A stretch of DNA of 22,188 nt, from positions 1 through 22,188 of the IMG/VR virus record IMGVR_UViG_3300040807_001282; one strand, written 5' to 3'. Below are positions 1 through 15,077 of this stretch, piece by piece. Both the position numbers and the translations under genes were made by a program. The stretch's first letter is position 1. The number at the start of each line of letters is the position of its first letter. The DNA is from a virus. The notes beneath the pieces were generated by a model that searched no databases, was not told the origin of the DNA, and saw only the letters and a list, made by a program, of their open reading frames with translations.

Positions 1-953
1 ATGGAGCTAAAGTTTATTTTGACCCAGTGGCTACAGCTAACTGGGTCAATCAGCTCGATAAAGGTGATAACAGAGTTCACTTTGAATATCATGGTGGTGA
101 GCCTATGCTTGCTCCTACTAAAGACCTATTTGATTTTTTCTTTAGAACATTTGATGTTTGGGAAAATAGAGCAACATATGGTATTACAACAAATCTCACT
201 TACAAATTAACAGAAGACAGATTAGACTTTTTTGATCATGTTATGGATGATGGTCGAATTGGTACTTCTTGGGATCCTACAATTCGCTTCGCAAATGAAA
301 AACAACGAAAGCTTTGGGAAGATAACGTTAAAGAATTAGTAAGTAAAGGTTTCCATTTAAAAGCTTTTATATCATTATCTAAAGACGTTGTCAATATGTC
401 ACCAAGGTTTATTACAGATTATATGATGAATCTTGGTATTAAAGAACTTTCTTGGGAACGTATTACTGGAAATGGTAATGCTTTATTATATGGTGATAAG
501 TTATATCCAACAAATAAAGAGTTGCAAGACTTCTTTATGAGATGTCATACAGAATGTGCAGATTTAAGAGGAGAATTTGAAGATGTCTTCATGGAAACAG
601 TCTATAACAAATTTGAAAAAGGACTCTTACACCAAGGAACGTTTTGCAGAGACTGTGAACAAAAATTATTTACGATTAATGCGACTGGTACTATTGCTGG
701 CTGCCCTAACGCTGCTCCTACCGATTATTATGGCCATATTAATCAATCAGTAGATGAAGTAATAAATACACCTAAGAGGGGAGAAGTTATAGCAAAAGAA
801 CTCTTCTTAAGAGATCCTCGCTGTTATACTTGCCCAGTCTTTGGATATTGCGGATCTGATTGCCACCAACTTGAATGGCAAGACGATGTTTGTCCAGCCC
901 CTAAAACTTTGATGATGGAATTATTGAATGGAATTAATCATAAAGCCCACTGA
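1..953 (+). CDS. Radical SAM/SPASM protein 1 (5' partial)
   Basis: Probable radical S-adenosylmethionine enzyme with a C-terminal SPASM domain, which in this family binds two auxiliary [4Fe-4S] clusters. The frame is open from base 3, so the true start and the CxxxCxxC cluster motif should lie left of the window. A GTG at 27 would drop conserved sequence and is unlikely to be the start. What is visible is the radical SAM GGEP motif (HGGEPML, near base 100) and, between about 650 and 890, a textbook SPASM pattern: C-X10-G-X4-C, then C-X2-C-X5-C-X3-C, then a last Cys. SPASM enzymes commonly modify peptides or proteins, for example in RiPP maturation or sulfatase activation, but the substrate here is unknown. 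The next gene starts 26 bases inside this one, which suggests translational coupling. Confidence 0.85.
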   Translation, partial: GAKVYFDPVATANWVNQLDKGDNRVHFEYHGGEPMLAPTKDLFDFFFRTFDVWENRATYGITTNLTYKLTEDRLDFFDHVMDDGRIGTSWDPTIRFANEKQRKLWEDNVKELVSKGFHLKAFISLSKDVVNMSPRFITDYMMNLGIKELSWERITGNGNALLYGDKLYPTNKELQDFFMRCHTECADLRGEFEDVFMETVYNKFEKGLLHQGTFCRDCEQKLFTINATGTIAGCPNAAPTDYYGHINQSVDEVINTPKRGEVIAKELFLRDPRCYTCPVFGYCGSDCHQLEWQDDVCPAPKTLMMELLNGINHKAH

Positions 954-1980
954 GGCATGTAACTTTAAATGTACTTTCTGTTCATCAACTAACATTGATC
1001 CAAAGAAAGCAAAGTTACTTGATCACGATTATATTTTTAAATTTCTAAAACGTTATCCTGAAACTAACACCATTATTGTAAATGGTGGAGATCCACTTAT
1101 GGTGGAACCTGATTACTATTGGAAAATTATTGATCATCTTGATGAACATAATTATCGTGCTAATATTAGTTTTACTACTAATCTTTGGCCTTTTGTAATT
1201 AAACCACAAAAATGGATTGATTTATTTCGTCATGAACGTATGGGAATTTGTACAAGTTTCCAATACGGTAAAGGTAGATTAAAAGGTGATTTTACTATTT
1301 TTACTGAAAAGGATTTTTGGAGAGCATCTGATATGATGCTTGATCTCGTTGGTTATAGACCAGACTTTATTGCTGTAATGACAGATGAAGACGCACCAGA
1401 TGCTATTCGTAATGTGGAACTTGCAAAAGAAATGAATGTCGAATGTAAGTTAAATTATGCTATGGCTTCTGGAGTACAAGGATCCACATATCGTTTAAGT
1501 AAGATCTATGAAACATATATAGAAATATACGATAGAGGTCTTTGGAAATGGGAATACAATACAAAACAAATGATGAAAAGGCTGCATGGTAATGCGACGT
1601 CTTGCCCGCAAAATAGAAGGTGTGATGAACATATCCGCGCTTTTAATCCTGGAGGTGATTATTATTCTTGCGGCTCTTTCGGTGATGATGGCGATTATCC
1701 TATCGATTTTGAATATGAATTAAATGGTGGTAAAGCAACACCTTTGCAAGATGATTTTAATATTCAAACAATGAAAAACGCTTGTTGGACTTGCCCAATG
1801 TTTGAAATTTGTAATGGTTGCAAAAAGACTGTACGTGATATGAAACGTGAAGGTATTACTGAAGCTCATTGTAAACATATGAAAACTTTAGCACCTCGCA
1901 TTCTTGAAATTAACGGGTTAGATCCTAATAGTGTAACCCCATATGTGAATGAGGAAGAAGATGTTCTCTGTATCAATTAA
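928..1980 (+). CDS. Radical SAM/SPASM protein 2
   Basis: 350-residue radical SAM enzyme. The CX3CX2C motif that binds the catalytic [4Fe-4S] cluster is at Cys11, Cys15 and Cys18, only ten residues from the start, so the ATG at 928 is well supported even though it lies inside the upstream gene and has only a weak GGA upstream. The GGDP version of the GGEP motif is at 53-56. The C-terminal third has SPASM-type cysteines: C-X10-G-X4-C, then C-X2-C-X5-C-X2-C and a final Cys in TEAHC. One spacing is C-X2-C where the usual SPASM pattern has C-X3-C. It is flanked by two other radical SAM genes and overlaps both. The reaction and substrate cannot be read from sequence. Peptide or protein modification is the best guess from the family. 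Confidence 0.88.
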   Translation: MELIIKPTEACNFKCTFCSSTNIDPKKAKLLDHDYIFKFLKRYPETNTIIVNGGDPLMVEPDYYWKIIDHLDEHNYRANISFTTNLWPFVIKPQKWIDLFRHERMGICTSFQYGKGRLKGDFTIFTEKDFWRASDMMLDLVGYRPDFIAVMTDEDAPDAIRNVELAKEMNVECKLNYAMASGVQGSTYRLSKIYETYIEIYDRGLWKWEYNTKQMMKRLHGNATSCPQNRRCDEHIRAFNPGGDYYSCGSFGDDGDYPIDFEYELNGGKATPLQDDFNIQTMKNACWTCPMFEICNGCKKTVRDMKREGITEAHCKHMKTLAPRILEINGLDPNSVTPYVNEEEDVLCIN

Positions 1981-2884
1981 TCCCACCTACTTTTGTAATT
2001 TTAATTGCGATTTTTGTTATTTAAGCAAAGAGCAATTACGTGATAGACAAACAGCTTCTATCGAAACGATTATGAAACGATTAAATGAAATAAATGAAAC
2101 AATTACACATATAGATCTATACGGTGGAGAGGTTGGATTATTACAAGACGATTATCTAAATGAATTAATTGATAGTATTAAAGCAGAATATAATCCAACA
2201 ATTTCTATTATTACAAATCTTTCTGCAATCCGTGAAGTATTTTTAAGACCAGATATTGATTTATCTGTGTCATATGATTTTGATGCACGAGAAAAAGAAA
2301 TGACTGTATTTACTAATATGTTAAAGCTGAACAGGCCGTTTTCAGTATTAACATTAGCATCAGAAAAAGTTATTAATAATGATGTAGATTATATGATTAA
2401 TATGTTTAATTCTTTGACTAATTTAATTGCTGTAGAGATTAAACCATTTAGTTCTACTACACACCGTACACAATATGTTACTGATTTGCAATATGAAGAG
2501 TTTATTAAAGAGTGGATTGATAGTCCAATTCCAAAAAATTGGTTGTTTATTAATCAAGATAAAATTGAGGAGTGCCTAGATGGAAATTATAATGCTTTTA
2601 GCGATAATCATGTTTATATTACTCCTAGCGGTAATTTTGCTGTACTGGATTTTGATTTATTGGGAAATGAAAGTTTTACAGAGCTCGATACTTTCGATGC
2701 ATATCTATCTTGGGCAAATAGAGAAAAGCAGTCAGGAGTCAGTGACATCTGCAAACAATGTAAATACTTCGGCGGATGCTTAACGGAGCATTATAAGTAT
2801 GTCGCGTTTGATCCAAAAATAAATGGTTGTAACGGTTATTTTAATCTACTAGAATGGTACAATGAAGAGCCAGTACGAGTATAG
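1961..2884 (+). CDS. Radical SAM protein 3 with degenerate SPASM region
   Basis: 307-residue radical SAM protein. Start chosen at the ATG at 1961 because AGGA lies five bases upstream; an in-frame ATG at 1949 has no such site and would add four residues. The cluster motif is Cys12, Cys16, Cys19 (CNFNCDFC) and a GGE motif follows in YGGEVG. The C-terminal part keeps C-X2-C-X5-C (CKQC then Cys in the GGC triplet) and a later Cys. The first SPASM pair is missing: the segment aligned by eye to C-X10-G-X4-C reads VYITPSGNFAVLD, and the fourth cysteine of the second set is replaced by His. It may therefore hold one auxiliary cluster, or none in the normal form. It overlaps its neighbours by 20 and 23 bases. 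Substrate unknown. Confidence 0.83.
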   Translation: MFSVSINPTYFCNFNCDFCYLSKEQLRDRQTASIETIMKRLNEINETITHIDLYGGEVGLLQDDYLNELIDSIKAEYNPTISIITNLSAIREVFLRPDIDLSVSYDFDAREKEMTVFTNMLKLNRPFSVLTLASEKVINNDVDYMINMFNSLTNLIAVEIKPFSSTTHRTQYVTDLQYEEFIKEWIDSPIPKNWLFINQDKIEECLDGNYNAFSDNHVYITPSGNFAVLDFDLLGNESFTELDTFDAYLSWANREKQSGVSDICKQCKYFGGCLTEHYKYVAFDPKINGCNGYFNLLEWYNEEPVRV

Positions 2885-3608
2885 AGTTCAATATGAACAG
2901 CAATATAGTAGAAATCTTGAGCCAGAATTAAGAACTGCTGAAGATGGTCACAGATATGCTATGTTTGTAAAAGGAAATACTTTTAATGTTGGTGGAAGAA
3001 CATATATATTCAAAGATCATTTAGGACAATATGTTAGTACTTTTGTAAGTCAATATTCTGATATTATAGATAATAATTTAGAGCCGGGCGTTAAAGATGC
3101 TGTACTTGCCTTACACGAAAAAGGTTATTTAACTTATACATCTTGCCAAGGACATGATGATTCTAAACACAGATATATTGGTGTAGTATTCAATACTAAT
3201 GAGCAAAAAAGAAAATTTATCAGAGAAGTAAACAAACTCAAGTGTGATATATATTGGTATGACCACGCAATAAATACGGTTGAAAGACCACAAACAAGCA
3301 TACCTTGGTGGTCAGACGCTATAAAATTGCATATTGTTTATAATGATAATTCTTTTGCTAATTCGGCAGTTGTTGACAGAAGAGATAAACCATACACAGA
3401 TGAAGAATTAACTAAATTTTGGAATATTCAAATGTGTAGAAACTACAATTATTACGAATCAATAATTTTGTGTTTTGGTTATCCTATGGTTGAAAAAAAC
3501 TTGTGGGAAAAAATTAAAAAGATATTTTTCTATAATCATTATAAAGTAACTAGTGCATATTTTAATTTTTTAAATAAAGTCAATCAATTACCGGAGTATG
3601 AGAATTAA
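2862..3608 (+). CDS. Unrecognised protein with SCQGH motif
   Basis: 248-residue protein that I cannot assign to a characterised family. It starts at an ATG inside the end of the third radical SAM gene (23-base overlap) with no clear Shine-Dalgarno sequence, which fits coupled translation. The most conserved-looking part is the middle: a helix-like segment GVKDAVLALHEKGYLTYT followed by SCQGHDD, then YIGVVF and a lysine-rich helix. Similar Ser-Cys-x-Gly-His segments occur in uncharacterised phage proteins as far as I recall. The Cys/His pair could bind a metal or be catalytic, but this is speculation. No signal peptide or membrane segment is seen. The aromatic C-terminal third has no recognisable domain. 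Its place between radical SAM and oxygenase genes suggests a role in the same process. Confidence 0.7.
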   Translation: MKSQYEYRVQYEQQYSRNLEPELRTAEDGHRYAMFVKGNTFNVGGRTYIFKDHLGQYVSTFVSQYSDIIDNNLEPGVKDAVLALHEKGYLTYTSCQGHDDSKHRYIGVVFNTNEQKRKFIREVNKLKCDIYWYDHAINTVERPQTSIPWWSDAIKLHIVYNDNSFANSAVVDRRDKPYTDEELTKFWNIQMCRNYNYYESIILCFGYPMVEKNLWEKIKKIFFYNHYKVTSAYFNFLNKVNQLPEYEN

Positions 3609-3609
3609 A

Positions 3610-4020
3610 ATGAAAGAATGGAAAGTTAGACAGCAGTATTTCGATATGATGAATCCAGATGCAGACTGGAAAGATGATTTAAACAAAGTAGATATCGTAG
3701 AAGTTGATGCTATGGATATTATTCCCGAAGCAATTCGACATTTTGAAGAGCATGTACCAGAATGGGTTTATCCATCTAAGTCTTATGTGGTAGCAATTTG
3801 TTATGCACATTGGATATCTCAAGATTTCGACGAAGATTTTTACGAAACATTAGCAGATCCAGAATTACTTCCCCACGATCCATATTTTGTTCCATATGAA
3901 GATGATAAACAAACATACGATGAAATTATTGAGGCAGTAACTCCAATTGATATGATTGGTATGGTACCAGATATTTACGAATATTATAGAGAAGAAATTC
4001 TGGAGTCTTTGATTGAATGA
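3610..4020 (+). CDS. Small acidic hypothetical protein
   Basis: 136-residue protein, rich in Asp and Glu along its whole length, with no recognised domain, signal peptide or membrane segment. The start at 3610 gives a TAA-A-ATG junction with the upstream gene, the same one-base spacing found at two later junctions in this run. An in-frame ATG at 3598 is possible, but the GGAG at 3593-3596 would be only one base away from it. The middle reads as a mixture of aromatic and acidic segments (SYVVAICYAHW, then repeated Asp/Glu/Tyr). The stop overlaps the next start as ATGA, so translation is probably coupled to the first oxygenase gene. Possible roles are a partner or substrate of the neighbouring enzymes; nothing in the sequence decides this. 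Confidence 0.65.
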   Translation: MKEWKVRQQYFDMMNPDADWKDDLNKVDIVEVDAMDIIPEAIRHFEEHVPEWVYPSKSYVVAICYAHWISQDFDEDFYETLADPELLPHDPYFVPYEDDKQTYDEIIEAVTPIDMIGMVPDIYEYYREEILESLIE

Positions 4021-4529
4021 ATTATGAAAAATTACAAATAGACGGTTATGACCATTTTAACGACCCACGCGTTTTTACTTATTTAGAATGGTTTTATAAA
4101 ACTCCTTTTATGATTACTTATCAAGGAGTAAAATATCCGATTACTTATTGGCCTATAGGTGTATGGCTTTTAAGAATGACGCAGAAAAAAATAGACGAAT
4201 TAATATTATCAGATGAGCTTTGCACATTTGGTAATGTGGATGCTTGGAGAGGTATAGATAATAAAACTGATGTGTGGCATACAGATCACATTGAAGGATC
4301 TAATCTTGCATTTCTCATGTATCTTACAGATATGGATGAATCTACTGGTGGTGGTATCCAAATTAAAAGAGCAAATTCATCCAATTATGCTACAATATAT
4401 CCTAAGAAATATGATATTGTTGTTTTGAATCAAAACGGCGATCAATTTAGACATAAAGTTATAAACTTAAAACAACCAATAAATAGAGATGTAGCAAATA
4501 TAGAATTTAATATTATGGAAAGGCTATAA
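4017..4529 (+). CDS. 2-oxoglutarate/Fe(II) oxygenase-like protein 1
   Basis: 170-residue protein of the double-stranded beta-helix oxygenase type related to prolyl 4-hydroxylases. The family couples oxidation of a substrate to decarboxylation of 2-oxoglutarate using an Fe(II) centre. The expected residues can be picked out: His88-x-Asp90 (WHTDH) as the first two iron ligands, His146 (FRHKV) as the third, and Arg157 as a plausible 2-oxoglutarate carboxylate ligand. Between them lie the typical YLTD...TGGG turn (102-113) and the strand before His146 (YDIVVLN). It is short for the family, so substrate-binding additions are minimal. It shares ATGA with the gene before and is followed by TAA-C-ATG of a second oxygenase. 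Substrate unknown; protein residue or small molecule hydroxylation are both possible. Confidence 0.78.
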   Translation: MNYEKLQIDGYDHFNDPRVFTYLEWFYKTPFMITYQGVKYPITYWPIGVWLLRMTQKKIDELILSDELCTFGNVDAWRGIDNKTDVWHTDHIEGSNLAFLMYLTDMDESTGGGIQIKRANSSNYATIYPKKYDIVVLNQNGDQFRHKVINLKQPINRDVANIEFNIMERL

Positions 4530-4530
4530 C

Positions 4531-5244
4531 ATGGATAATACAAATATTATAAAAATCCATCCTACACATATTCTAGTTAAAGAAATTCCATTTACAGACG
4601 AAGAAATGGATGAGCTGCGAGTTTGTGCAAAAGCAACGTGGACAGGCTATTACGAGCAAGGATTAGATAGTCATGACTATCAATGTAATTCCGATCCTTT
4701 TCCTCTTTTTACAAAAGAAAATTTAAATATTTTTCCAATTTTAGGTAAATTAAAAAATGAATTTGAAAAAGGCTTTTATGAATTGGCCATTTCTCACGAG
4801 GGAAATACATTAACAAGAGAACAAATTTCACACATGGTTGCTCAACAGCATGGGCAAATGCCAATTATGCAACAAGGTGATCTAATTGCGTTACATACAC
4901 ATCCTGGATCATTAGCTTATGGTATTTTTTATTTAGATGACGTTGATAATGAAAAAGATGGTGGTATACTTCAATTGTGGGATCCTTCATTCCATGTGAA
5001 TGCTGGCATGAGAAATCCACAAATTTATGAAGTGGATACTGTAGCTAGGAGATTAGTAATTGTGCCAACATACATTTGGCATAATGTTACACAATATTAT
5101 GGAAAATCTGAAAGAATTTCTGTTATTTGTAATTTGTCAATTCATCCAGATTTTGAAAGAGTTTTAACATATAGTGGTGTACAGGAAAACGGTGCATTTA
5201 CTGACAAAACAAAAGGTTCTGGATTTGATCCAGCGGCGGTGTAA
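4531..5244 (+). CDS. 2-oxoglutarate/Fe(II) oxygenase-like protein 2 (HxH type)
   Basis: 237-residue oxygenase-like protein with the layout of the phage/bacterial group known as 2OG-FeII_Oxy_5 (TIGR02466-like). The core reads His122-Thr-His124-Pro, a GIFYLDD strand, a GG...WDPS segment, VPTYIWH with His184 as distal ligand, and Arg195 in SERIS as likely co-substrate ligand. The first motif is HxH where the standard oxygenase triad has HxD; to my knowledge HxH is usual in this group and is not by itself a sign of inactivation. The start has AAAGG seven bases upstream and follows the previous stop by one base. A roughly 100-residue N-terminal part precedes the core and has no recognised motif. 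Substrate unknown. Confidence 0.78.
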   Translation: MDNTNIIKIHPTHILVKEIPFTDEEMDELRVCAKATWTGYYEQGLDSHDYQCNSDPFPLFTKENLNIFPILGKLKNEFEKGFYELAISHEGNTLTREQISHMVAQQHGQMPIMQQGDLIALHTHPGSLAYGIFYLDDVDNEKDGGILQLWDPSFHVNAGMRNPQIYEVDTVARRLVIVPTYIWHNVTQYYGKSERISVICNLSIHPDFERVLTYSGVQENGAFTDKTKGSGFDPAAV

Positions 5245-5245
5245 T

Positions 5246-5806
5246 ATGGAATATAAAGATTTATGGCCTACGACAGTAGGGTTTGGAAAATTTGATTCTG
5301 TGGAATTATCTCAGTATATTCTTATGAATTACGATATGAGCAATCCTCCTAGTGATATGCAAGGTAAAAACATTTTTAACGATCATACATCATATATGCA
5401 AAAATTTCAAAATGATGTTTATGGTGCTTTTAATAATTATTTAACACATACTATTGGTAAAAAGATTAGTGATTGGAAATATCATGAAATGAAAGCTTGG
5501 ATTACTGGGCATGATTATGAATATAATATGACTATTCATAATCACTCTGGTGCTCATTTATCTGGTGTATTTTATGTTTTAGCCGAAGATCAAAAATCTG
5601 GTGGCGATATTGTATTTTCTGATCCAAGAAGCAACGCTAATAGAGGTTATGACGAATATTTTGATCCTATGTTTGATAGACTTATTCACAGACCGCAAAC
5701 TGGTGATTATATGATTTTTCCAAGTTTCACGTATCATCATGTAAATCCATATTATTCAAATCTTAGAATTTGTGTTCCGGTTGATCTTTATTTGTACAGA
5801 GGTTAA
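5246..5806 (+). CDS. 2-oxoglutarate/Fe(II) oxygenase-like protein 3 (HxH type)
   Basis: 186-residue protein of the same 2OG-FeII_Oxy_5-like group as its neighbour. The start at 5246 places LWPTTVGFGKF at the N terminus, as this group usually begins, and gives a TAA-T-ATG junction. An upstream in-frame ATG at 5174 would add 24 unlikely residues overlapping the gene before. Visible core: His98-Asn-His100, HLSGVFYVL, SGGDIVFSDPRS, the strand DYMIFPS, His164/His165 and Arg174. The match to the group's consensus is better here than in protein 2. It is the last gene of the left run; a strong late promoter follows its stop. The two HxH proteins are probably distant paralogues and may act on related substrates. 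Confidence 0.83.
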   Translation: MEYKDLWPTTVGFGKFDSVELSQYILMNYDMSNPPSDMQGKNIFNDHTSYMQKFQNDVYGAFNNYLTHTIGKKISDWKYHEMKAWITGHDYEYNMTIHNHSGAHLSGVFYVLAEDQKSGGDIVFSDPRSNANRGYDEYFDPMFDRLIHRPQTGDYMIFPSFTYHHVNPYYSNLRICVPVDLYLYRG

Positions 5807-5810
5807 AACA

Positions 5811-5818
5811 TATAAATA
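5811..5818 (+). promoter_or_regulatory. T4-type late promoter (TATAAATA)
   Basis: Exact match to the T4 late promoter box TATAAATA, the -10-like element read by the gp55 late sigma factor in T4. It lies four bases after a stop codon and about 70 bases before the start of a small protein gene. The 14 bases starting here (TATAAATAGAAACA) are identical to those at 16686, ahead of the tail sheath gene. Confidence 0.75.
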
Positions 5819-5885
5819 GAAACATGAATGGTTTATGTCGACAAATAAAAAAACCAATACAAGTTAACTTAATGGAGAAAATAAA

Positions 5886-6305
5886 ATGGCTCTAACACTT
5901 ACATATTCTGTTACTAATCTTAAAGTAAAAGATCAAGTAAACAGCGAAGGTACAACTCTTTCCAATGCAGTTTGTCAAACATACTGGAAAGTTGTTGGTG
6001 AAGACGAAAACGGCAATCAAGCAGATTGGGCCGGTGCAACTCCTTTTACAGCTGAAAATGTCCCAGCTGCATCATTTATTTCTTTTGATGATCTAGTAGA
6101 AGAAGATGTTCTTGGTTGGATTAAAGCCGTAGTAGACGGTGATCCTACTTATAAAGCTCATATCATTGATCAGCTACAAAGAAAAATCGATCAAGATGCT
6201 GCTCGTGATGCAACAATGCCTTGGGCGCCTGATGTAACACCGCCGGCACCTGAAGTTGGTGAGGCTGATCCAAATGTAGCCGATCCAGTAGACCCAGAAG
6301 CATAA
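5886..6305 (+). CDS. Small phage protein, tandem paralogue A
   Basis: 139-residue protein of a family I associate with uncharacterised small proteins of marine T4-like phages (possibly the DUF7936 type; from memory, not checked). It begins with beta-rich TLTYSVTNLKV, then a conserved-looking NSEG, a WK strand, DENGNQADWAGATPF, a PAASFISF segment and EDVLGWIKAVV. It ends in a long tail rich in Pro, Glu, Asp and Ala. GGAGAAA sits six bases before the ATG, and the gene is the first after the TATAAATA box at 5811, so late expression is likely. The next gene encodes a shorter relative lacking the acidic proline-rich tail. A virion or assembly role is plausible from late expression only. Confidence 0.75.
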   Translation: MALTLTYSVTNLKVKDQVNSEGTTLSNAVCQTYWKVVGEDENGNQADWAGATPFTAENVPAASFISFDDLVEEDVLGWIKAVVDGDPTYKAHIIDQLQRKIDQDAARDATMPWAPDVTPPAPEVGEADPNVADPVDPEA

Positions 6306-6321
6306 GTAGAGGAATTCTATC

Positions 6322-6651
6322 GTGAATTATACCTGGAAAATAATGAACTTAGGTACAATGGATGAATTGAATTCTGAAGGCGAAGTTCTTCCGAATTCGA
6401 TTGTTTCTGTTCGCTGGAAGAAAATTGCTACAGATACAGATGGATCTACTGCAACATATCTAGGTAAAACAACACTAACTGCTGCAAATACACCAGCATC
6501 AGAATTTATTAATTTTAATAGTGTATCTCAAGATACTGTGCTCGAATGGGTTCAAAACTCTTTAGGTCCTGCCGAGATAAATACAATTAATAAAATATTA
6601 GAGAAGAAGATACAAGAAGGCAAAGTTAGAAAACAAACACCTAATTGGTAA
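6322..6651 (+). CDS. Small phage protein, tandem paralogue B
   Basis: 109-residue paralogue of the preceding protein. Shared positions include the N-terminal NL segment, NSEG (residues 13-16), a WK strand, DG followed by an aromatic and G-x-T, the TAAN-PASEFI-F block and VLEWVQ. The start is GTG at 6322, supported by AGAGGA at 6308-6313 with eight bases to the start; no ATG gives the conserved N terminus. It ends with a basic helix (NKILEKKIQEGKVRKQ) where copy A continues into an acidic proline-rich tail, so the two copies differ strongly in C-terminal charge. Only 16 bases separate the genes. Function unknown; duplication with divergence is clear. Confidence 0.75.
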   Translation: MNYTWKIMNLGTMDELNSEGEVLPNSIVSVRWKKIATDTDGSTATYLGKTTLTAANTPASEFINFNSVSQDTVLEWVQNSLGPAEINTINKILEKKIQEGKVRKQTPNW

Positions 6652-6682
6652 CTTTTTATTATTTTTATATTATGGAGAAAAG

Positions 6683-7717
6683 ATGCACGACTTGTTTATG
6701 GGTGGACTAGCGACTTATGCTTTAAAAAGAGGTGGTACTCTTCATCCTGTTTTACTACCAAAATCAGTACTAGGAAACGAAACTGGGATTATGAATCCTT
6801 CCATTTTTATTGACGATGGAAGGATTCTTCTCAATATTCGTCATGTCAATTATATCCTTTATCACAGTGAAGGTAAAAGGTTTCCACATCAGTGGGGACC
6901 GCTTGTTTATATTCATCCAGAAAATGACGTAACTCTAAGAACTCACAATGTAATGTGTGAGCTTGATGAGAATTTAAATCTTTTAGATGCTGGTAGAGTT
7001 AACATGGTTTTGGATACAGAACCAACTTGGAACTTTATTGGTTTAGAAGATGCTCGTTTATTTAAATGGGATGATAAACTTTATCTTTGTGGTGTTCGTA
7101 GAGATTGCTATGATAATAAAGGCACCGGTAGAATGGAACTCTGCCATATTCATAAAACTGAAAATGGTTGGGAAGAAATTTCGCGTCATCCTATTCCAGC
7201 ACCCGGAGAAGATAATAGCTTCTGCGAGAAAAACTGGATGCCAATTTTAGATAAACCATATCATTTTGTAAAATGGTGTAATCCTATTCAAGTTGTTAAA
7301 TACAATATTGAAGAAGGAACAACAGAAGTTGTTTTTGAGAATGAAGGTGAAAGAGCTCCTTTCGATAAAGACTTTAGAGGCGGATCTCAAGTATTGAGAA
7401 TTAATGAAAACCAGTATATGGCTTTTATTCATGAAACAAATCTTTTAAGAGATCCTTTTGGCCGTAAAGATGGAGACTATTCTCATCGTGTTCTAATTTG
7501 GGACAATGATTGGAATTTAATTCACGCATCTAAAAAATTCCATTTCCTTGGTACATATTACGATCATGTAACTAATACCGATTATAATATTGAATTTGTT
7601 ACTGGTGCTACTGTACTAAATAATGACATTCTAATTTCGTTTGGTTTTCAAGATAATGCTTCATTTATTCTCAGAATTCCATTAAACGTATTTTATGATT
7701 TTTTAACTAAAGGTTGA
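6683..7717 (+). CDS. GH130-like beta-propeller glycosidase/phosphorylase
   Basis: 344-residue protein resembling the five-bladed beta-propeller glycosidase and mannosyl-phosphorylase group (GH130 and relatives), which cleave or phosphorolyse mannosides and related sugars. Typical blade motifs occur in order: NPSIF (38-42), GLEDARLF (120-127), CEKNWMP (181-187), RGGSQ (232-236), and a late FVTGATVL...ILISFGFQD block. In the family the EDAR acidic residue region and the basic residues near RGGSQ line the active site. Length fits a single propeller with no signal peptide, so it acts in the cytoplasm or in a virion. GGAG at 6674-6677 is five bases before the ATG. It heads a three-gene sugar-related run, so host glycan or virion glycan processing is the likely job. 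Exact activity cannot be assigned. Confidence 0.72.
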   Translation: MHDLFMGGLATYALKRGGTLHPVLLPKSVLGNETGIMNPSIFIDDGRILLNIRHVNYILYHSEGKRFPHQWGPLVYIHPENDVTLRTHNVMCELDENLNLLDAGRVNMVLDTEPTWNFIGLEDARLFKWDDKLYLCGVRRDCYDNKGTGRMELCHIHKTENGWEEISRHPIPAPGEDNSFCEKNWMPILDKPYHFVKWCNPIQVVKYNIEEGTTEVVFENEGERAPFDKDFRGGSQVLRINENQYMAFIHETNLLRDPFGRKDGDYSHRVLIWDNDWNLIHASKKFHFLGTYYDHVTNTDYNIEFVTGATVLNNDILISFGFQDNASFILRIPLNVFYDFLTKG

Positions 7718-7721
7718 TTAC

Positions 7722-8963
7722 ATGCTAGCTCTTACACAATGTTTAAAAGATGTAGTTTATGATTTTGATAATCCTGAAAAACTATATGCTCTTGGTAAAG
7801 AATATGATAAATTAGAACAAGGGGCTGGTGCTTTTAGTTGGTATCTTAGAGCAGCAGATTTTGCTGATGGATTGACATGGTCGTCTCGTTGGATTCAGTA
7901 TAAGTCAATGATTCTAGGTGCGTTTATTTACCAACGAAATGGTAATAGAGATCATAGTGTTGAAGGTCTTTTAAAAATTGCGATTGAAACAATGCCCGAA
8001 AGACCTGAAGCTTATTACTTTCTTTCTAAATTTAAACAAGAAAGAAATGATTGGCGCGAAAGTTTAATGTATGCCCGCATTGGTGTAAATATTATTGATG
8101 AAGAAGAAACTTCTCCTCCAGATAATGATTTAGGTTATCCTGGAGATAATGCATTACGTTTATTATATGCTCGTGCTAAATGGAAAACAGATGGTCGAGA
8201 TGATTCTAAAAATCTTGCGTTTGATTTAAAATACAAAAGAAAATTAACACCACAATTAGATAAAGAAGTTACAGAACTCTTATCACAGCACGGTTATCCA
8301 AGCACTTTAAAATACACATATGGTGATGATGAGTGGTATAAATTTAAATTTGATGGAATTGAAGATATAGAACAAAACTATTCTCGTCATTTCCAAGATA
8401 TGTTTGTATTATCTGCTCTTAATGGTAAAGAAAATGGTACATTTATAGAGATTGGATCTGGGCATCCAGAACTTTTCAATAATACAAAACTTCTTGAAGA
8501 AGATTTTGGATGGAAAGGTTTATCTATTGACAACTCAGAAAGAATGTGTTATGAGTTTTCAAGAAAAAGAAAAACACCAGTGATGTGTGCTGATGGTTCT
8601 CAATTGGATTATAAACAAGTATTTAAACAACATTGTTTTGAACAACAAATAGAGTTCCTCAGAATTAATGCAGAAAAAGCTTCATTAGAAGTATTGAAGA
8701 AAATTCCGTTTAAAGTGCACGAGTTTGAAGTAATTCAATTCCAACACAATGCATGTTGGTGGGGACCTGAGTTTAGAAATGCTTCTAGAAAAATACTTAG
8801 TGAAATCGGATATATATTATTAGTACCGGATGTTGCAGTAAGCCCAGTTGAAAATTATGAAGATTGGTGGGTTCACCCAAATGTTGCTAAAAAACATCCA
8901 GAAATGAAACCTAAAAAGAAATTCAATTTTGCTTGGGATTATATGATGAAGGAGTTAACATGA
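7722..8963 (+). CDS. Repeat domain fused to FkbM-type methyltransferase
   Basis: 413-residue two-part protein. The first about 200 residues are helical and TPR-like (repeated A-x-x-x-Y-x-x-A and W-x-L-R-A-A patterns; MPERPEAYYFLSKF...YARIGV), similar to repeats attached to phage and bacterial glycosyltransferases. The second half is a class I SAM-dependent methyltransferase of FkbM type: FIEIGSGHP at about 241-249 is the SAM-binding loop, followed by NNTKLLEEDFGWKGLSID, the FkbM signature in which an acidic residue ends strand beta2. FkbM enzymes usually O-methylate sugars or polyketides. It follows the GH130-like gene by four bases with AAAGG before the ATG, and its stop overlaps the next start as ATGA. 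Methylation of a phage-associated or host glycan is the likely role, inferred from family and context. Confidence 0.78.
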   Translation: MLALTQCLKDVVYDFDNPEKLYALGKEYDKLEQGAGAFSWYLRAADFADGLTWSSRWIQYKSMILGAFIYQRNGNRDHSVEGLLKIAIETMPERPEAYYFLSKFKQERNDWRESLMYARIGVNIIDEEETSPPDNDLGYPGDNALRLLYARAKWKTDGRDDSKNLAFDLKYKRKLTPQLDKEVTELLSQHGYPSTLKYTYGDDEWYKFKFDGIEDIEQNYSRHFQDMFVLSALNGKENGTFIEIGSGHPELFNNTKLLEEDFGWKGLSIDNSERMCYEFSRKRKTPVMCADGSQLDYKQVFKQHCFEQQIEFLRINAEKASLEVLKKIPFKVHEFEVIQFQHNACWWGPEFRNASRKILSEIGYILLVPDVAVSPVENYEDWWVHPNVAKKHPEMKPKKKFNFAWDYMMKELT

Positions 8964-9715
8964 AAGCAGTTATCGTAACTGGCGGTTTTGATCCACTTCA
9001 CTCAGGTCATATCGCATACTTTAAAGCAGCCAAAGAGCTTGGATCTATTCTATTTGTAGGTGTAAATAGTGATGAATGGTTGACTCGTAAAAAGGGTCGT
9101 CCATTTATGCCAGCTGAAGAGCGTATGGCAATTATCAAAGAGATTGGTTGTGTTGGTCACGTATTCCAATTTGACGATTCAGATGATACTGCAATCGATG
9201 CTATTAAATACGTAAAAAATTATGTACCAAATAATACACCAATTGTTTTTGCAAATGGTGGTGATCGTACTAAAGACAATATTCCTGAAATGGTTTTTGA
9301 TGATGTCGAATTTGTGTTTGGCGTTGGTGGCGAAGATAAAAAGAATAGTTCTTCATGGATTCTATCTAATTGGGATAAACCAACTACTCAAAGACTATGG
9401 GGTAAATACAGAGATCTTGATGCTAATGGCCATTGGAAAGTAAAAGAACTTTCTATTGATATGGGTAAATCTTTATCTGATCAAAAACATTTTAAAAGAT
9501 CTGAGCATTGGCACATTGTTGATGGTGATCTACAAATGGATCTTGAATTTGCAAATGGTTACAAGACTTCTAAAGTTTATAAAACTGGCGAAAGTATTGA
9601 CATTCCAAAACTTGCATGGCATAAAGCAACCAATGTTGGTTCTGCTCCAGTTAAAGTAATTGAAGTTTGGATGGGATCTGAATTATCAGAAGAAGACATT
9701 GAAAGAAGATCTTAA
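8960..9715 (+). CDS. Nucleotidyltransferase-cupin fusion (cytidylyltransferase-like + ManC-type cupin)
   Basis: 251-residue bifunctional-looking protein. Residues 1-140 are a cytidylyltransferase-like domain: GGFDPLHSGH (8-17) holds the HxGH nucleotide-binding motif, and KNSSSWIL near the end of the domain matches the position of the ISSTxI-like motif. Residues 145-251 resemble the C-terminal cupin of mannose-6-phosphate isomerase/ManC proteins: RLWGKYR, an LSDQKHFKRSEHWHIVDG block with His177, Glu182 and His183 as metal-ligand candidates, IPKLAWHKATN, then VIEVWMGSELSEEDIER. The family pairing suggests activation of a sugar phosphate or alditol phosphate to an NDP-sugar plus isomerisation or sugar binding. 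GGAG at 8951-8954 fixes the ATG at 8960, which overlaps the previous stop. Substrate cannot be named. Confidence 0.82.
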   Translation: MKAVIVTGGFDPLHSGHIAYFKAAKELGSILFVGVNSDEWLTRKKGRPFMPAEERMAIIKEIGCVGHVFQFDDSDDTAIDAIKYVKNYVPNNTPIVFANGGDRTKDNIPEMVFDDVEFVFGVGGEDKKNSSSWILSNWDKPTTQRLWGKYRDLDANGHWKVKELSIDMGKSLSDQKHFKRSEHWHIVDGDLQMDLEFANGYKTSKVYKTGESIDIPKLAWHKATNVGSAPVKVIEVWMGSELSEEDIERRS

Positions 9716-9725
9716 TATTGTTTAT

Positions 9726-9739
9726 TAGACATAAGTCTA
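9726..9739 (+). other. Small hairpin after the sugar gene run
   Basis: TAGAC and GTCTA form a perfect five-base stem around the loop ATAA, eleven bases after the stop of the nucleotidyltransferase gene. No T-run follows directly, so it is weak as an intrinsic terminator; it could protect the 3' end of the upstream message or be chance in AT-rich DNA. Confidence 0.3.
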
Positions 9740-9754
9740 TTATAACCATAGAAT

Positions 9755-9777
9755 AAAAGGTTGTCAACTACTTTTTT
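9755..9777 (+). terminator. Possible intrinsic terminator
   Basis: AAAAG pairs with CTTTT, with an inner GTT/AAC stem and a two-base bulge, ending in a run of six T. The arrangement fits a weak Rho-independent terminator between the sugar gene run and the structural genes. Its last T is the first base of the TATAAATA box, so termination and a new late start would be back to back. The stem is short and AT-rich. Confidence 0.4.
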
Positions 9778-9784
9778 ATAAATA
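9777..9784 (+). promoter_or_regulatory. T4-type late promoter (TATAAATA)
   Basis: Exact TATAAATA box in a 100-base gap, about 30 bases before the first structural gene of the right half. Its place at a functional boundary, just after a candidate terminator, supports a real late promoter. Confidence 0.7.
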
Positions 9785-9815
9785 TTGATAAATTAGTTCA
9801 AAAAAGGAGATAATG

Positions 9816-10223
9816 ATGGCTTTTCAGTTATCAATCGACGCAAGAAATGCAACATTGCAGGCTTTAGAAACAAGTATTGGACCAAGTCCTATTCTTACGA
9901 TGAGCACAGGTACAGCTCCTGCAGATTGTGCACAAGCAAATACTGGCACTGTATTAGCAACAATGATTCTACCTACAGATTGGTTAGGTACACCTAATGC
10001 TGGTAACATTAACTTATCAGGCAATTGGCAAGACCTTTCGGCAGATGATAGTGGTACTGCTGGTTATTTTAGATTATATGATAGCACAGGTACAACATGT
10101 CATATGCAAGGTACAATTTCTGGTACTGGAGCAGGTGGCGATATGCAACTTGATAATACAAATATTGCTACAGGTCAGCAAATTACCGTTACTTCGTTTT
10201 CAATTACTGCTGGCGGAGCATAA
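9816..10223 (+). CDS. Putative small virion structural protein
   Basis: 135-residue beta-rich protein. I recognise the pattern of a small protein common in marine phages: an N-terminal helix NATLQALETSIGPSP, STGTAPADCA, LPTDWLG, SGNWQDLSADDSGTAGYFRLYDSTGTTCHMQGT and a closing ITVTSFSITAGGA strand. It is usually found among virion genes and annotated only as structural or hypothetical. Two adjacent ATG codons are available; the second (9816) lies six bases after GGAG at 9806-9809 and gives the usual MAFQ-type start, whereas the first (9813) is only three bases away. It is the first gene after the TATAAATA box at 9777. Part of the capsid or tail surface is a reasonable guess. Confidence 0.72.
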   Translation: MAFQLSIDARNATLQALETSIGPSPILTMSTGTAPADCAQANTGTVLATMILPTDWLGTPNAGNINLSGNWQDLSADDSGTAGYFRLYDSTGTTCHMQGTISGTGAGGDMQLDNTNIATGQQITVTSFSITAGGA

Positions 10224-10242
10224 CAAGAACGGATAATATCTC

Positions 10243-10830
10243 ATGTCCGCAAATGGTGCGTTCACATCGACATTAGATTTTGATTTTATTGGTGGTGGTT
10301 ATTTAACTATTCAAGGTGGGGCCGCAGGAACAATTGATCCTGTATTAAGCTCCACCTCAAAAGTTTTTATTGTTGGTCAATCTTCCAATAACTTCATCTC
10401 GTATGATATTGTTTCTGGGGCTCAAATGCCTCCAGCATCTGGCCGTTTAGAATACACTTTAGACTTTACCGTTTCTGCTACTGTCGAATTTGGTGTTCAA
10501 AGATGGGCTACAGCAAATACTAGAATTGAATTCACACTAGATACTGTACCCGCATATAATCTTACTCATTCATATTTAAACAAGACACTTACTTTTACGT
10601 TAGAAAGTCTTGCAGATCAATTCTCTCTTGGTGAATTAACTGTTAGTGCTTTTGATTATAGTTTTTCTGGTAAAGCAGTAAATGTTTCTACACATGTGTA
10701 TGATATAAAAGGTTTAAATAATGTTCAATTTAGAGATAATTATAATACTGTTTCATTATTAGAACATATTAATGACATCCAATTAGTAGATAATGGCTCT
10801 ACAGATGTTAGAATTTTGTCGCCTGCGTAA
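10243..10830 (+). CDS. Unrecognised beta-rich protein, probably virion-associated
   Basis: 195-residue protein with no family that I recognise. Composition is that of a secreted or virion beta-sandwich: many Thr, Ser, Val and Gly, no membrane helix, one Cys at most, and alternating hydrophobic strands such as RLEYTLDFTVSATVEF and KTLTFTLESLADQF. The N terminus SANGAFTSTLDFDFIGGGYLTI resembles the start of phage surface proteins. GGAT lies about nine bases before the ATG. It sits between a putative structural protein and a baseplate-type domain protein, so a tail or baseplate decoration is suggested by context only. Confidence 0.65.
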   Translation: MSANGAFTSTLDFDFIGGGYLTIQGGAAGTIDPVLSSTSKVFIVGQSSNNFISYDIVSGAQMPPASGRLEYTLDFTVSATVEFGVQRWATANTRIEFTLDTVPAYNLTHSYLNKTLTFTLESLADQFSLGELTVSAFDYSFSGKAVNVSTHVYDIKGLNNVQFRDNYNTVSLLEHINDIQLVDNGSTDVRILSPA

Positions 10831-10834
10831 TTTT

Positions 10835-10842
10835 AATAAATA
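10835..10842 (+). promoter_or_regulatory. Candidate late promoter (AATAAATA)
   Basis: AATAAATA, one base from the T4 late box and within the NATAAATA pattern described for marine T4-like phages. It lies just after a stop codon and 25 bases before the start of the BppU-like gene. Such boxes also occur by chance inside genes of this AT-rich sequence. Confidence 0.4.
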
Positions 10843-10866
10843 AAAGTAAAATCTTTGGAGAAAAAA

Positions 10867-11202
10867 ATGGCGGCTAGTTTTTATATAAAACAAAATGATA
10901 CTGCTCCCTCTATACAAGCTGTTCTTACAGATTCAAATGGTAGAGCAAAATCAATGGTAGGTGGCGCATCTGTTAGATTTAATATGTCTAAAGAAGATGG
11001 CACAAACGTAATTTCAGGTGGTATTGGATCATTTATAGTTCCATTATCTAAAGGAATCGTTGCATATGAATGGGCTGCCGGAGATACAGCAGACGCTGGA
11101 ATTTATAACGCCGAATTTGAAATTACATATACAAGTGGCCAAGTCGAAACCTTTCCAAATAACAGTTATATCAAAGTAATTGTAAAAGAAGAGTTGGCGT
11201 AA
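10867..11202 (+). CDS. BppU N-terminal-like baseplate/fibre domain protein
   Basis: 111-residue protein matching the pattern of the N-terminal domain of BppU-like baseplate upper proteins: KQNDTAPSIQAVLTDSNGRAKSM, GGASVRFNM, then GIVAYEWAAGDTADAGIYNAEFEITYTSGQ, a TFPNN segment and a final strand KVIVKEEL. The fold in that family is a small beta-sandwich that attaches receptor-binding parts to a baseplate. Start is the ATG at 10867, six bases after GGAG (10857-10860); an upstream TTG at 10855 would overlap this ribosome site and is unlikely. Here the domain stands alone with no receptor-binding part. In phages of this kind it may bridge tail or head to fibres. Confidence 0.72.
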   Translation: MAASFYIKQNDTAPSIQAVLTDSNGRAKSMVGGASVRFNMSKEDGTNVISGGIGSFIVPLSKGIVAYEWAAGDTADAGIYNAEFEITYTSGQVETFPNNSYIKVIVKEELA

Positions 11203-11212
11203 GGAGTAGCAT

Positions 11213-11956
11213 ATGGCACAGCCAACATCAAAAGACGAATTTAAAGAGTACATCCTTAGAAAGATTGGTGCTCCAGTTATTCAGATTAACGTATCTGAAG
11301 AGCAAGTAGATGACCGTGTAGATGAAGCGATTTCTTTTTGGAGAGATTATCACTATAACGGTATGCAACAAATTTATCTGAAGCATCTTATTACAGAGCA
11401 AGATGTTGCGAATGGATATGTTAAATTACCAGATCGTCTTTTAGGTATTTCAAATATATTTGATTTTGATACTTCAATTTCTACTGGTACCGGAATCTTT
11501 AACGTAAATTATCAGTTTGTTTTAAATAATTTAACAGATCTCACAGGTTATAGCATTCAAAATTATTGGATGACTATGTCACATCTTGCTTTCTTACAAG
11601 AATGGTTAGTAGGCAAACCTTTAATTAGATATAACAAACACGTTAATAAGTTATTCATTGATGCTGACAAATCTTCTTTTGTCGCAGGAAAATGGATTAT
11701 TGTAGAAGCATATGATATTATCGATCCTGATGCATATTCAGACGTATGGAGCGATAGATGGTTACAAAATTATGCTGCTGTACTAGTTAGAGAACAATGG
11801 GGTTTAAATCTTACTAAATTTACCAATGTACAATTAATTGGCGGTGTTTCTTTTAATGGCGAGCAAATTTTATCAGAAGCCAGAGAAGAAAGAAGAGCAA
11901 TGGAAGAAGAAGCCATTAATAATCTTCAACCACTAACATACAACTTTATTGGGTGA
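11213..11956 (+). CDS. 13: Neck protein gp13
   Basis: 247-residue homologue of T4 gp13, a head-completion/neck protein that joins the filled head to the tail. Recognisable features are the N-terminal helix KDEFKEYILRKIGAPVIQINVSEEQVDDRVDEAISFWRDYHYNG (first and last parts typical), the strand KWIIVEAYDIIDPD, the helix WLQNYAAVLVREQWG and the block NVQLIGGVSFNGEQILSEAREERRAMEEE near the C terminus. AAGGAG at 11201-11206 is six bases before the ATG. It is the first gene of the conserved 13-to-20 block and is followed within seven bases by gp14, its partner in the neck of T4. Confidence 0.9.
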   Translation: MAQPTSKDEFKEYILRKIGAPVIQINVSEEQVDDRVDEAISFWRDYHYNGMQQIYLKHLITEQDVANGYVKLPDRLLGISNIFDFDTSISTGTGIFNVNYQFVLNNLTDLTGYSIQNYWMTMSHLAFLQEWLVGKPLIRYNKHVNKLFIDADKSSFVAGKWIIVEAYDIIDPDAYSDVWSDRWLQNYAAVLVREQWGLNLTKFTNVQLIGGVSFNGEQILSEAREERRAMEEEAINNLQPLTYNFIG

Positions 11957-11962
11957 TGGGTA

Positions 11963-12643
11963 ATGGCAACCAATGTATACTTCAGTAACTACGATAACTT
12001 CAATGAACAAAATTTAATTGACGATCTAGTAATAGAATCAATTCAAATTTATGGCATTGATGTAACGTTTATTAGTGGCACGTTCAATAATATTGATACC
12101 ATCTTAAATGAAGATGATACGCCACTATACGATCAATCGTTTAAATTTGAAGTATATGTTAAAAATGTTGATGGCTTTGAAGGAGAAGGCGACTTCCTAT
12201 CTAAATTTGGTTTACAAATTAGAGATCAGATTACGTTTACTGTTGCTATTAGAACATTTGAACGTTATGTTACTCGCACTTGGCAAGATAAAATCAGACC
12301 AAAAGAAGGTGATGTTATCTGGCTACCACTTAATCAAAAGATGTATCGTATTACTTATGTTGAGCACGAGTCTGTATTTTATCAAACCGGCGCTTTACAA
12401 GTTTATGACATGCGCTGCGAGCTTATGGAATATTCTGGTGAAAGATTTGAAACTGGCATATACGAAATAGATCATTACTTTGATGGGCAGAATCAAACTA
12501 CAACATTTGTTACAACTCTTGCAGATGTTGCTAACAACGATCCAATTGCTCAAAACTATGACTTCGAAAAAGTCGCTGATGATATTATCGATTTCTCAGA
12601 AATTGATCCATTCAGTGAAAGCATTTCAATACAGGATTCATAA
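11963..12643 (+). CDS. 14: Neck protein gp14
   Basis: 226-residue homologue of T4 gp14, which forms the neck with gp13 and is needed for heads to bind tails. Supporting features are NEQNLIDDLVIESIQIYGIDV near the N terminus, the segment LSKFGLQIRDQITFTVAIRTFE, RPKEGDVIWLPLNQKMYRITYVEHE, FYQTGALQVYDMRCELMEYSGERFETG and an EIDHYFD run. These blocks in this order are the hallmark of the family. The ribosome site is weak (GGGT-type, near the gp13 stop), consistent with coupling to gp13 seven bases upstream. Ends three bases before gp15. Confidence 0.9.
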   Translation: MATNVYFSNYDNFNEQNLIDDLVIESIQIYGIDVTFISGTFNNIDTILNEDDTPLYDQSFKFEVYVKNVDGFEGEGDFLSKFGLQIRDQITFTVAIRTFERYVTRTWQDKIRPKEGDVIWLPLNQKMYRITYVEHESVFYQTGALQVYDMRCELMEYSGERFETGIYEIDHYFDGQNQTTTFVTTLADVANNDPIAQNYDFEKVADDIIDFSEIDPFSESISIQDS

Positions 12644-12646
12644 AGA

Positions 12647-13552: not shown

Positions 13553-13555
13553 ATA
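13548..13555 (+). promoter_or_regulatory. Candidate late promoter (CATAAATA)
   Basis: CATAAATA overlapping the gp15 stop codon, about 28 bases before the fibre-like gene. It fits the NATAAATA late box pattern. A promoter here would let the inserted fibre-like gene be expressed apart from the neck genes. Confidence 0.5.
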
Positions 13556-13582
13556 AAGATAAAACTATAGGAAACAGATTCA

Positions 13583-14626: not shown

Positions 14627-14636
14627 AGGTGATTAA

Positions 14637-15077
14637 ATGGATGATGATAAGATTTCATCTGCTCTCGGTATTAGGCCGTTAGCAGAAATTAGTGAAGAGG
14701 AAAAAAATCTACCGGCCGAAACAGTAGATGTTACACCTCTCCCTTCTGTTATGTCTGAAGATGATGATGAAAATATTCAAGACTTAGAAACGGTTCGTCA
14801 AAATATTCAAGGAATTATTGAAACTGGTAATGATGCAATGCGCGAAATGTTAGAGATTGCAAAACAATCTGAACAACCAAGGGCATTTGAAGTTGTTTCT
14901 ACTTTAATGAAAACAATGCTAGATGCCAATAAAGATTTTGCTGATGTTTCAACTAAAAAGAAATTCGCTAAAGAAGAAATTAATGCTCCTAAGCAAGCTG
15001 CTCAAGTAACAAATAACAATTTGATAGTCTCAACTGCTGACTTATTGAAAATGATTAAAGGTAACAACGATGGGTGA
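14637..15077 (+). CDS. 16: Terminase small subunit gp16
   Basis: 146-residue homologue of T4 gp16 (164 residues), the small terminase that forms rings, recognises viral DNA and regulates the packaging motor. The assignment rests on position directly before gp17, size, and a central helical region (DLETVRQNIQGIIETGNDAMREML then LEIAKQ and AFEVVSTLMKTMLDANKDFADV) that matches the oligomerising core of the family. The first 50 residues are acidic and probably flexible; the C terminus has a short STADLLKMIKG helix. AAAGG at 14625-14629 gives seven bases to the ATG. It overlaps gp17 by eight bases. Confidence 0.88.
   Translation: MDDDKISSALGIRPLAEISEEEKNLPAETVDVTPLPSVMSEDDDENIQDLETVRQNIQGIIETGNDAMREMLEIAKQSEQPRAFEVVSTLMKTMLDANKDFADVSTKKKFAKEEINAPKQAAQVTNNNLIVSTADLLKMIKGNNDG

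Follow-up and report, generated by a model that had tools for sequence, protein, structure and literature searches.

The window analysed here, a 22,188-base virus record (IMG/VR record IMGVR_UViG_3300040807_001282, positions 1 to 22,188), comes from a T4-like phage, with terminase, tail sheath, tail tube, portal, sheath stabilizer and head-tail adaptor all matching phage families, and its first 2.9 kb hold three consecutive, overlapping plus-strand frames for radical S-adenosylmethionine (SAM) enzymes, here P1, P2 and P3. P1 (3..953) is open at its 5' end and is followed by P2 (928..1980) and P3 (1949..2884). All three match phrog_1802 ('radical SAM domain-containing protein'; P1 8e-46, P2 2e-53, P3 2e-33), and P2 and P3 pass the Pfam Radical_SAM cut-off of 29.5 bits with 37.8 and 37.3 bits, which places them in the radical SAM superfamily. 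An earlier sequence-only reading had claimed three consecutive radical SAM genes in a phage, and the frames, the phrog_1802 matches and the T4-like contig bear this out. Because the contig starts inside P1, the CX3CX2C motif of this enzyme lies outside the window; it is seen as Cys-19, Cys-23 and Cys-26 in a sister contig, IMGVR_UViG_3300040751_001912 (locus L008 in our numbering), which is 99.94% identical over window 1-12434 (12,434 nt) and 99.84% identical over 8102-18215, and which holds the full-length 348-residue P1 at L008:5959-7005.

Relatives of the three enzymes were taken from the loci fetched up to L165, cleared of near-copies and aligned, giving 70 homologues of P1, 41 of P2 and 38 of P3, with the CX3CX2C kept in 69/70, 41/41 and 38/38, respectively. 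The ligand patterns previously described for the window all hold, namely the SPASM pattern C-X10-G-X4-C, C-X2-C-X5-C-X3-C, C in P1, the shortened spacing C-X2-C-X5-C-X2-C in P2, and a P3 that has the CX3CX2C, lacks the first cysteine pair and carries histidine at the fourth cysteine of the second set. The eighth SPASM cysteine lies upstream of the first pair and is conserved in 66/70 P1 and 41/41 P2 homologues. All eight cysteines are kept in 66-70 of the 70 P1 sequences and in all 41 P2 sequences, and with eight of eight each, P1 and P2 both belong to the SPASM proteins, which have seven or eight conserved cysteines in the C-terminal domain. Five of those in P1 (C266, C306, C309, C315 and C319) align with cysteine positions of the anaerobic sulfatase maturase anSMEcpe (4k37), which we take to be the cluster ligands C276, C317, C320, C326 and C330.

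P3 falls outside this group, which has two auxiliary clusters, as its conserved C-terminal cysteines are C268, C271, C277 and C294 only, all of the cluster-II set and each present in 38/38 homologues. The four cysteines could be those of a Twitch domain, a truncated SPASM domain with three or four cysteines and a single auxiliary cluster. In the heme synthase AhbD, according to the part of PMC10452713 available, the CX2CX5C...C set binds auxiliary cluster II and the earlier cysteines together with the fourth of the series bind cluster I, and because of this assignment P3 would keep all of cluster II and be without all of cluster I. We had to consider that other cysteines might complete a second cluster in P3, but none that could do so is conserved in the alignment (C209 occurs in 4/38); the columns 156 and 256 hold cysteine in 15 and 14 of the 38 sequences and leucine and alanine in the window. 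Around the sequence places of the cluster-I ligands lie His-221, His-281, Asp-236 and Glu-241, invariant in 38/38. P3 most likely works with one auxiliary cluster only, bound at the site of cluster II. Since His-281 is invariant, the exchange of cysteine for histidine does not look like decay, and the ligand state of P3 is, as judged from the alignment, a settled one; it also has a precedent in AhbDs that carry cluster II alone, described in the same excerpt of PMC10452713. The ligand patterns of the three enzymes are not chance, because they are repeated at these frequencies in the homologues of each.

The AlphaFold2 model of P3 is confident, with a mean predicted local distance difference test (pLDDT) score of 93.6, and its closest solved folds are those of ChlB, anSMEcpe, SuiB, the entries 5why and 5wgg (presumably CteB) and TigE, with Z-scores of 17.6-21.2, and viperins with 15.8-18.2. 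The folds nearest to the model are thus mostly those of peptide-modifying enzymes. At the level of profiles, P1 scores 19.2 bits against Pfam SPASM, just below the cut-off of 21.5, and 30.9 bits against NCBIfam TIGR04085, above the cut-off of 27; P2 reaches only 20.3 bits against TIGR04085, yet has all SPASM ligands. No curated equivalog family reached its cut-off for P1-P3 among the matches listed (for P2 and P3 the best 25 of 47 and the best 25 of 61 NCBIfam matches), the sole passing match being the generic SPASM domain in P1. The anaerobic sulfatase maturase family TIGR03942 was rejected for P2 (44.8 bits) and P1 (16.6 bits) against a cut-off of 349.45, and the viperin and NrdG families were rejected with scores far under their cut-offs.

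Upstream, the sister contig carries a further set of genes, consisting of R4 (374 residues, phrog_1802, a fourth enzyme of this kind), a 649-residue radical SAM enzyme with a B12-binding domain, a cupin, proteins A and B, and a 186-residue protein that we call the CHS protein. For the B12-type enzyme both Pfam matches lie below cut-off, and the best NCBIfam match is to a KedN5-type methyltransferase (94.9 bits, cut-off 700). The CHS protein matches phrog_35144 and has the C-terminus YCHTSCHSSCHSSRGRR, with the tail motif CHTSCHSSCHSSRGRR at its very end; the usual form of this tail is [C-H-x-S]x3-R-G-R-R. The window itself contains no CHxxCH anywhere. We scanned for the tail as the DNA pattern CHxxCHxxCHxxRxRR-stop, without any radical SAM information. 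IMG/VR returned at least 120 stretches, and 119 of those listed hold an open reading frame, 110 of them distinct; the permuted motif (HC for CH) returned none there. A scan of 84,980 species genomes gave 19 stretches, two of them out of frame and one a low-complexity chance match, and P1 is absent from the three genomes whose match was chance.

We judge the tail motif to be real and specific. Serine occupies the three free pattern positions in 139, 121 and 138 of 153 distinct proteins, the glycine of RGRR is present in 138/153, and the repeat number is three in 152 proteins and four in one. An aligned subset of 37 full-length CHS proteins has only 13 invariant columns, and ten of these belong to the tail. 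In the structural model (190 residues, built with 37 sequences) the body is confident, and the tail, which forms the last block, reaches a pLDDT of only about 51, so that CHS is predicted to be a folded body with a flexible tail. The better matches of the CHS protein in BFVD include a protein of Atu_ph07 of the same length as the CHS protein of that phage, 296 residues. A 28-residue tail query found no match in the phage collection, and neither did a 127-residue double-motif protein. Two records in IMG/VR (L045:3-362 and L142:9167-9676) share an identical CHS stretch before and in the tail, and possibly derive from the same phage population. The CHS protein at L192:6872-7453 ends in CHSSCHSSCHGSI, not in ...GSRGRR, a truncated end that is either real or a sequencing error.

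The motif gene is tightly linked to radical SAM genes. For these counts, which cover the IMG/VR motif loci among the matches listed, a gene was termed radical-SAM-like if a profile-free phmmer comparison related it to P1-P3, to R4 or to the B12 enzyme, or if it had CX3CX2C near the start of a frame of >250 residues. Such a gene lies between -1.5 and +6 kb of the motif in 99/103 loci with enough flank (of the 110 distinct ones), with a density of 241 per 516 kb near the motif vs 0 per 200 kb at >4 kb upstream. The four loci without one are two truncated contigs (L058 and L101) and two of the window's lineage (L054 and L133), in which the genes lie further along. P1 ends within 1.5 kb upstream of the motif gene in 63/69 single-motif loci with at least 1 kb upstream, and 59 of these 63 P1 genes are within 47 nt of the CHS gene or overlap it; the six loci that lack an upstream P1 are L054 and L133, again of the window's lineage, and L057, L060, L128 and L131, the last three being tandem-type relatives. 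Downstream of the motif gene follow R4 (41/43), P2 (18/20) and P3 (18/20). A separate group has short CHS proteins, usually as a tandem pair. Here, in the majority of loci, another radical SAM-like family begins no more than ∼90 nt from the final CHS gene; in L060, L090, L109 and L128 it begins ∼1.8 kb downstream. These tandem phages (L110:5361-12881 and L109:3864-9424) also have, close by, about five further divergent radical-SAM-like genes with a motif like LSGCxxxCxGCFV and only weak family matches.

The converse search gave the same picture. Seven phage records match P1-P3; the six inspected, which are from isolate phages, all carry a CHS tail, and the seventh is the GenBank twin of Atu_ph07. 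Thirteen contigs were found by P3, eight with CHS and five ending before its expected place. Among 30 loci found by P2, the strict motif is present in 13, L187 and L177 have three CH units elsewhere, L190 and L191 have the variant tail LCHYSCFTSSCHFSRGRR directly after P1, L192 ends in CHSSCHSSCHGSI, and the other 12 all have little flank on one or both sides or lie on a contig that stops within ∼10 kb of P2. Together these data provide strong linkage of CHS, as a candidate substrate, to the radical SAM genes, and by genetic linkage only the system resembles the RiPPs (ribosomally synthesized and post-translationally modified peptides), in which a ribosomal substrate is encoded with its maturases.

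The same set occurs in predatory bacteria. The order to which a Bacteriovorax genome belongs was covered with 129 genomes, of which 13 have a strong P1 (>330 bits) and 22 others have weak matches only (≤55 bits). The strict motif is present in 5/129 genomes, all of them among the 13 with a strong P1 (Fisher p = 4.7e-6). Variant tails were searched for in the strong-P1 genomes only, and seven of the eight that remain have one in the same cluster: CHGNFPPPCHGSRGRR in four, and CHTNVPTPPPCHASRGRR, CHSSHSSHSSHSSRGRR and CHSNHCSHSNHGSRGRR in one each. A tail or variant is thus present in 12/13 strong-P1 genomes. Among these variants the cysteines vary more than the His-x-Ser and the terminal SRGRR do.

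Fibre genes are another recurrent neighbour of the CHS gene. A tail-fibre C-terminal family, assigned by the PHROG tail-fibre matches of its seeds, is encoded upstream on the same strand in 42 of the 55 distinct motif loci that have 3.5 kb or more of upstream sequence, in 13 of the 42 within 16 nt of CHS. In predatory bacteria the neighbour of CHS has the Peptidase_S74 fibre chaperone domain in 7/7 cases tested and a prepilin signal above the Pfam cut-off in 4/7. This union of a prepilin N-methylation signal with the phage Peptidase_S74 domain is encoded at L204:6453-7544, L205:6683-7780, L206:7576-8703 and L149:5961-7142, and the proteins are apparently pilin-anchored tail fibres. In Bdellovibrio, Peptidase_S74 fibres do their work at the surface of the prey, as stated in the accessible portion of PMC10769870.

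Further genes of the cluster follow P3 in the window, all on the plus strand up to position 5806. X (2862..3608; 248 residues, no assigned family) occurs in 15 loci, none from predatory bacteria; it belongs to the window's phage lineage only, in this sample, and is probably not a core part of the cluster. Y (3598..4020; 140 residues, phrog_20737) is a conserved member found in 58 loci, 11 of these from predatory bacteria. Three oxygenase genes come next: a 2-oxoglutarate (2OG)-Fe(II) oxygenase-like protein (4017..4529), a conserved cluster member with 24.9 bits, below the Pfam cut-off of 27, and two 2OG-Fe(II) oxygenases of PF13759 (4531..5244, and 5246..5806 with phrog_81). Common to phages and predatory bacteria are proteins A, B and Y, the cupin, one 2OG enzyme family, P1-P3 and R4. 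In this sample, only the phage lineage of the window has X, two small DUF-like proteins, a GH130-like protein (window 6683-7717; weak, sub-threshold similarity to GH130 mannoside phosphorylases; 18 loci of this lineage), an adjoining putative FkbM-type methyltransferase (window 7722-8963) and an adenylyltransferase-like protein (window 8957-9715); the last three are a possible sugar-handling set. Elsewhere, L204 encodes a JmjC_2 protein (52.9 bits, cut-off 22), and relatives of the JmjC_2 family hydroxylate histidine or arginine. In one phage cluster a tryptophan-halogenase-like gene (PF04820, 256.8 bits; L190:13154-14503) stands directly after P3 and would be a halogenating step in a phage protein-maturation cluster. 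Two adjoining genes annotated as dihydrofolate reductase lie between R4 and P2 in a Burkholderia phage cluster (L016:16001-17178).

We propose, with a probability of roughly 0.72, that these genes encode a RiPP-like maturase battery that modifies the C-terminus of the fibre-associated CHS protein, which would have a role in attachment. The CHS body would serve as a built-in recognition domain, like the leader peptide in RiPPs, and the radical SAM enzymes (P1, P2, P3, R4, often the B12-type enzyme and others) would modify the cysteine, histidine and serine residues of the tail, assisted by the cupin/JmjC proteins and the 2OG-Fe(II) oxygenases. Cross-linking and hydroxylation would be the most likely chemistry. 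Our first guess for the modified or metal-binding residue is histidine, because it is best kept, with cysteine-based thioether links as the next guess. The finished CHS protein could then be carried on the tail fibre, near its end, or on a pilin-anchored fibre in predatory bacteria, and serve attachment to the target cell. The gene content fits such peptide tailoring, with the cupin/JmjC proteins, the 2OG-Fe(II) oxygenases, the B12 radical SAM enzyme and the L190 halogenase. A more specific proposal, that several kinds of phage and predatory bacteria share a radical SAM line building a cross-linked or tailored Cys-His-Ser 'claw' on a fibre-tip protein, is a tentative one to which we give somewhat less than an even chance.

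Several observations weigh against the maturase battery. Gene linkage is no proof of a substrate role for the tail, and we found neither mass-spectrometric or biochemical data for any member nor a virion proteome naming the CHS protein. P1 and the CHS gene are not adjacent in the lineage of the window but lie ∼6 kb apart, one predatory genome with P1 (G104) has no CHS protein within the 9 kb read, 13/55 loci have no fibre family upstream, and the L192 protein ends in GSI instead of GSRGRR. The CHS body had no solved-structure match in PDB searches, a result that does not show a new fold.

Other chemistries and roles can be imagined for the same genes. The tail might be a metal-binding or redox tip (iron, copper or zinc), which the enzymes would turn into a metallophore-like ligand, either as a mimic of a siderophore or to hold a bound metal at the fibre tip. 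Three Cys-His repeats would give six ligands, the repeat number is nearly constant at three, and histidine is kept even where cysteine is reduced to one, as in CHSSHSSHSSHSSRGRR, but six ligands are not retained in the variants in which NFPPP or NVPTPPP separates two CH units. We regard this as unlikely, and as a sub-case of the maturase battery rather than its opposite. Alternatively, tail cysteines could be oxidized to formylglycine by anSME-like chemistry. The sulfatase motif has C-x-x-S-R spacing, with proline or alanine, and the last repeat, C-H-x-S-R, has this spacing too; P1 has its best solved match, and P2 its best NCBIfam match, among the anaerobic sulfatase maturases, and both keep both auxiliary clusters. 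However, the 44.8 bits of P2 stand against a cut-off of 349, the CHS tail can do without the proline or alanine found in sulfatases (most proteins have G, S, T or N at position 11), and four or more radical SAM enzymes would be unneeded, which makes formylglycine formation improbable.

Nor do we favor an auxiliary metabolism of the phage, in which the radical SAM genes would serve nucleotide or DNA modification or the activation of a reductase and CHS would be a mere neighbour. Such roles have been guessed for other phages with radical SAM genes, according to a partial view of PMC3322345, and some of the extra enzymes have weak NrdG-type matches, but the set stays together from phages to bacterial chromosomes, predatory bacteria would not need phage DNA modification, and the SPASM architecture and the nearest folds mostly point to peptide modification, and we give this possibility a small share of the probability. 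Smallest of all is the chance that the enzymes are recent duplicates in one phage that lost auxiliary-cluster ligands stepwise, as three adjoining related genes with graded cysteine counts had suggested to the sequence-only reading. P2 has lost nothing, with its eight ligands in 41/41, and P3 is without one complete set as a unit, in a state fixed in 38/38. In a maximum-likelihood tree P1, P2, P3 and R4 each form one clade with support of 99-100 on stems of 1.75-3.3 changes per site, in a set of 72 sequences (18 per group) that has no outgroup or outside radical SAM family and in which long branches meet. Because the four clades are separate and sit on long stems, they do not represent a recent series within one phage. 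On this tree the four enzymes would be ancient separate lineages, and they may be either old duplicates or separate recruits, as their best profile scores against one another (14-59 bits) and against outside families of radical SAM enzymes (31-45 bits) overlap. Unrelated recent imports are likewise unsupported, the same set recurring across phages and bacteria. What survives of the earlier proposal is the shared substrate, now without the loss series: action on one substrate is the best reading because P1-P3 co-occur with one motif protein.

If the maturase battery is real, viruses build a tailored-peptide structure into their own particle with a type of enzyme that is otherwise familiar from peptide natural products, a device that predatory bacteria share. 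The large numbers of radical SAM genes in some phages of the T4-like and jumbo kinds could then be explained, and phrog_1802, phrog_35144, phrog_20767 and phrog_20737 would gain a shared role. In P3 one would have a naturally occurring enzyme that binds just the second auxiliary cluster, with an invariant histidine pair near the sequence place of the first. If the claw exists, attachment would depend on a post-translationally built structure that is invisible to sequence-based prediction of receptor binding, and RiPP chemistry would make a part of a virion or predator fibre, not a secreted peptide. Cultivated phages for a direct test are Agrobacterium Atu_ph07, Sinorhizobium Phosso, Burkholderia FLC6, FLC8 and SURPRISE13, and Pseudomonas pPa_SNUABM_DT01; the CHS protein is YP_009611835.1 in Atu_ph07 and XYS97446.1 in Phosso.

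Neither the CHS tail nor its radical SAM link was found described in the open-licence literature that we searched on phage radical SAM enzymes, Hxs, SPASM/Twitch, ChlB and Bdellovibrio fibres. Radical SAM genes are noted in phages, and no tail role is given for them in the portions seen of PMC8066314, PMC11898562, PMC6143709 and PMC5332604. The last of these (Nishimura et al. 2017) reports, in the part at hand, 12 radical SAM genes in the T4-like marine phage TARA_ERS488813_N000010. This T4-like phage, rich in radical SAM genes, may be of the same kind, and the tandem-CHS phages may resemble it, but in that part its genes are given as iron-sulfur proteins without a substrate or tail motif. The Bdellovibrio MAT fibres are similar in being phage-like Peptidase_S74 fibres of predatory bacteria at the prey surface; the available text of PMC10769870 names no radical SAM enzyme, prepilin signal or CHS tail with them. 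AhbD has the CX2CX5CX2C of P2, and many AhbDs keep cluster II only, like P3 (PMC10452713, in part), but AhbD acts on a tetrapyrrole, and no AhbD family is among the listed matches of P1-P3. The SPASM peptide maturases (anSME, CteB, SuiB, TigE and ChlB) share fold and ligand layout, and ChlB-type enzymes are paired with alpha-ketoglutarate-dependent hydroxylation of aspartate and histidine (PMC12636437, from an excerpt), whereas P3 has the cluster-II set only.

The nearest known idea is the His-Xaa-Ser (Hxs) system. As reportedly described by Haft and Basu in 2011, it consists of a substrate-like protein with His-x-Ser repeats and radical SAM enzymes. The likeness to HxsA/HxsB/HxsC/HxsD (TIGR03979, TIGR03978 and TIGR03977) lies in a substrate-like protein that ends in His-x-Ser repeats with radical SAM genes alongside, and the CHS relative at L209 ends in CHSSHSSHSSHSSRGRR. 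Membership was rejected by score, P1 having 25.8 bits vs 370 for HxsB, P2 27.7 vs 267.9 for HxsC, and the L209 CHS protein 16.2 vs 121.65 for HxsA. The Hxs work is cited in the part of PMC9062424 that was available. Unlike Hxs, the CHS loci combine a Cys-His-x-Ser repeat and an RGRR end with four or more radical SAM enzymes, oxygenases and adjoining fibre genes.

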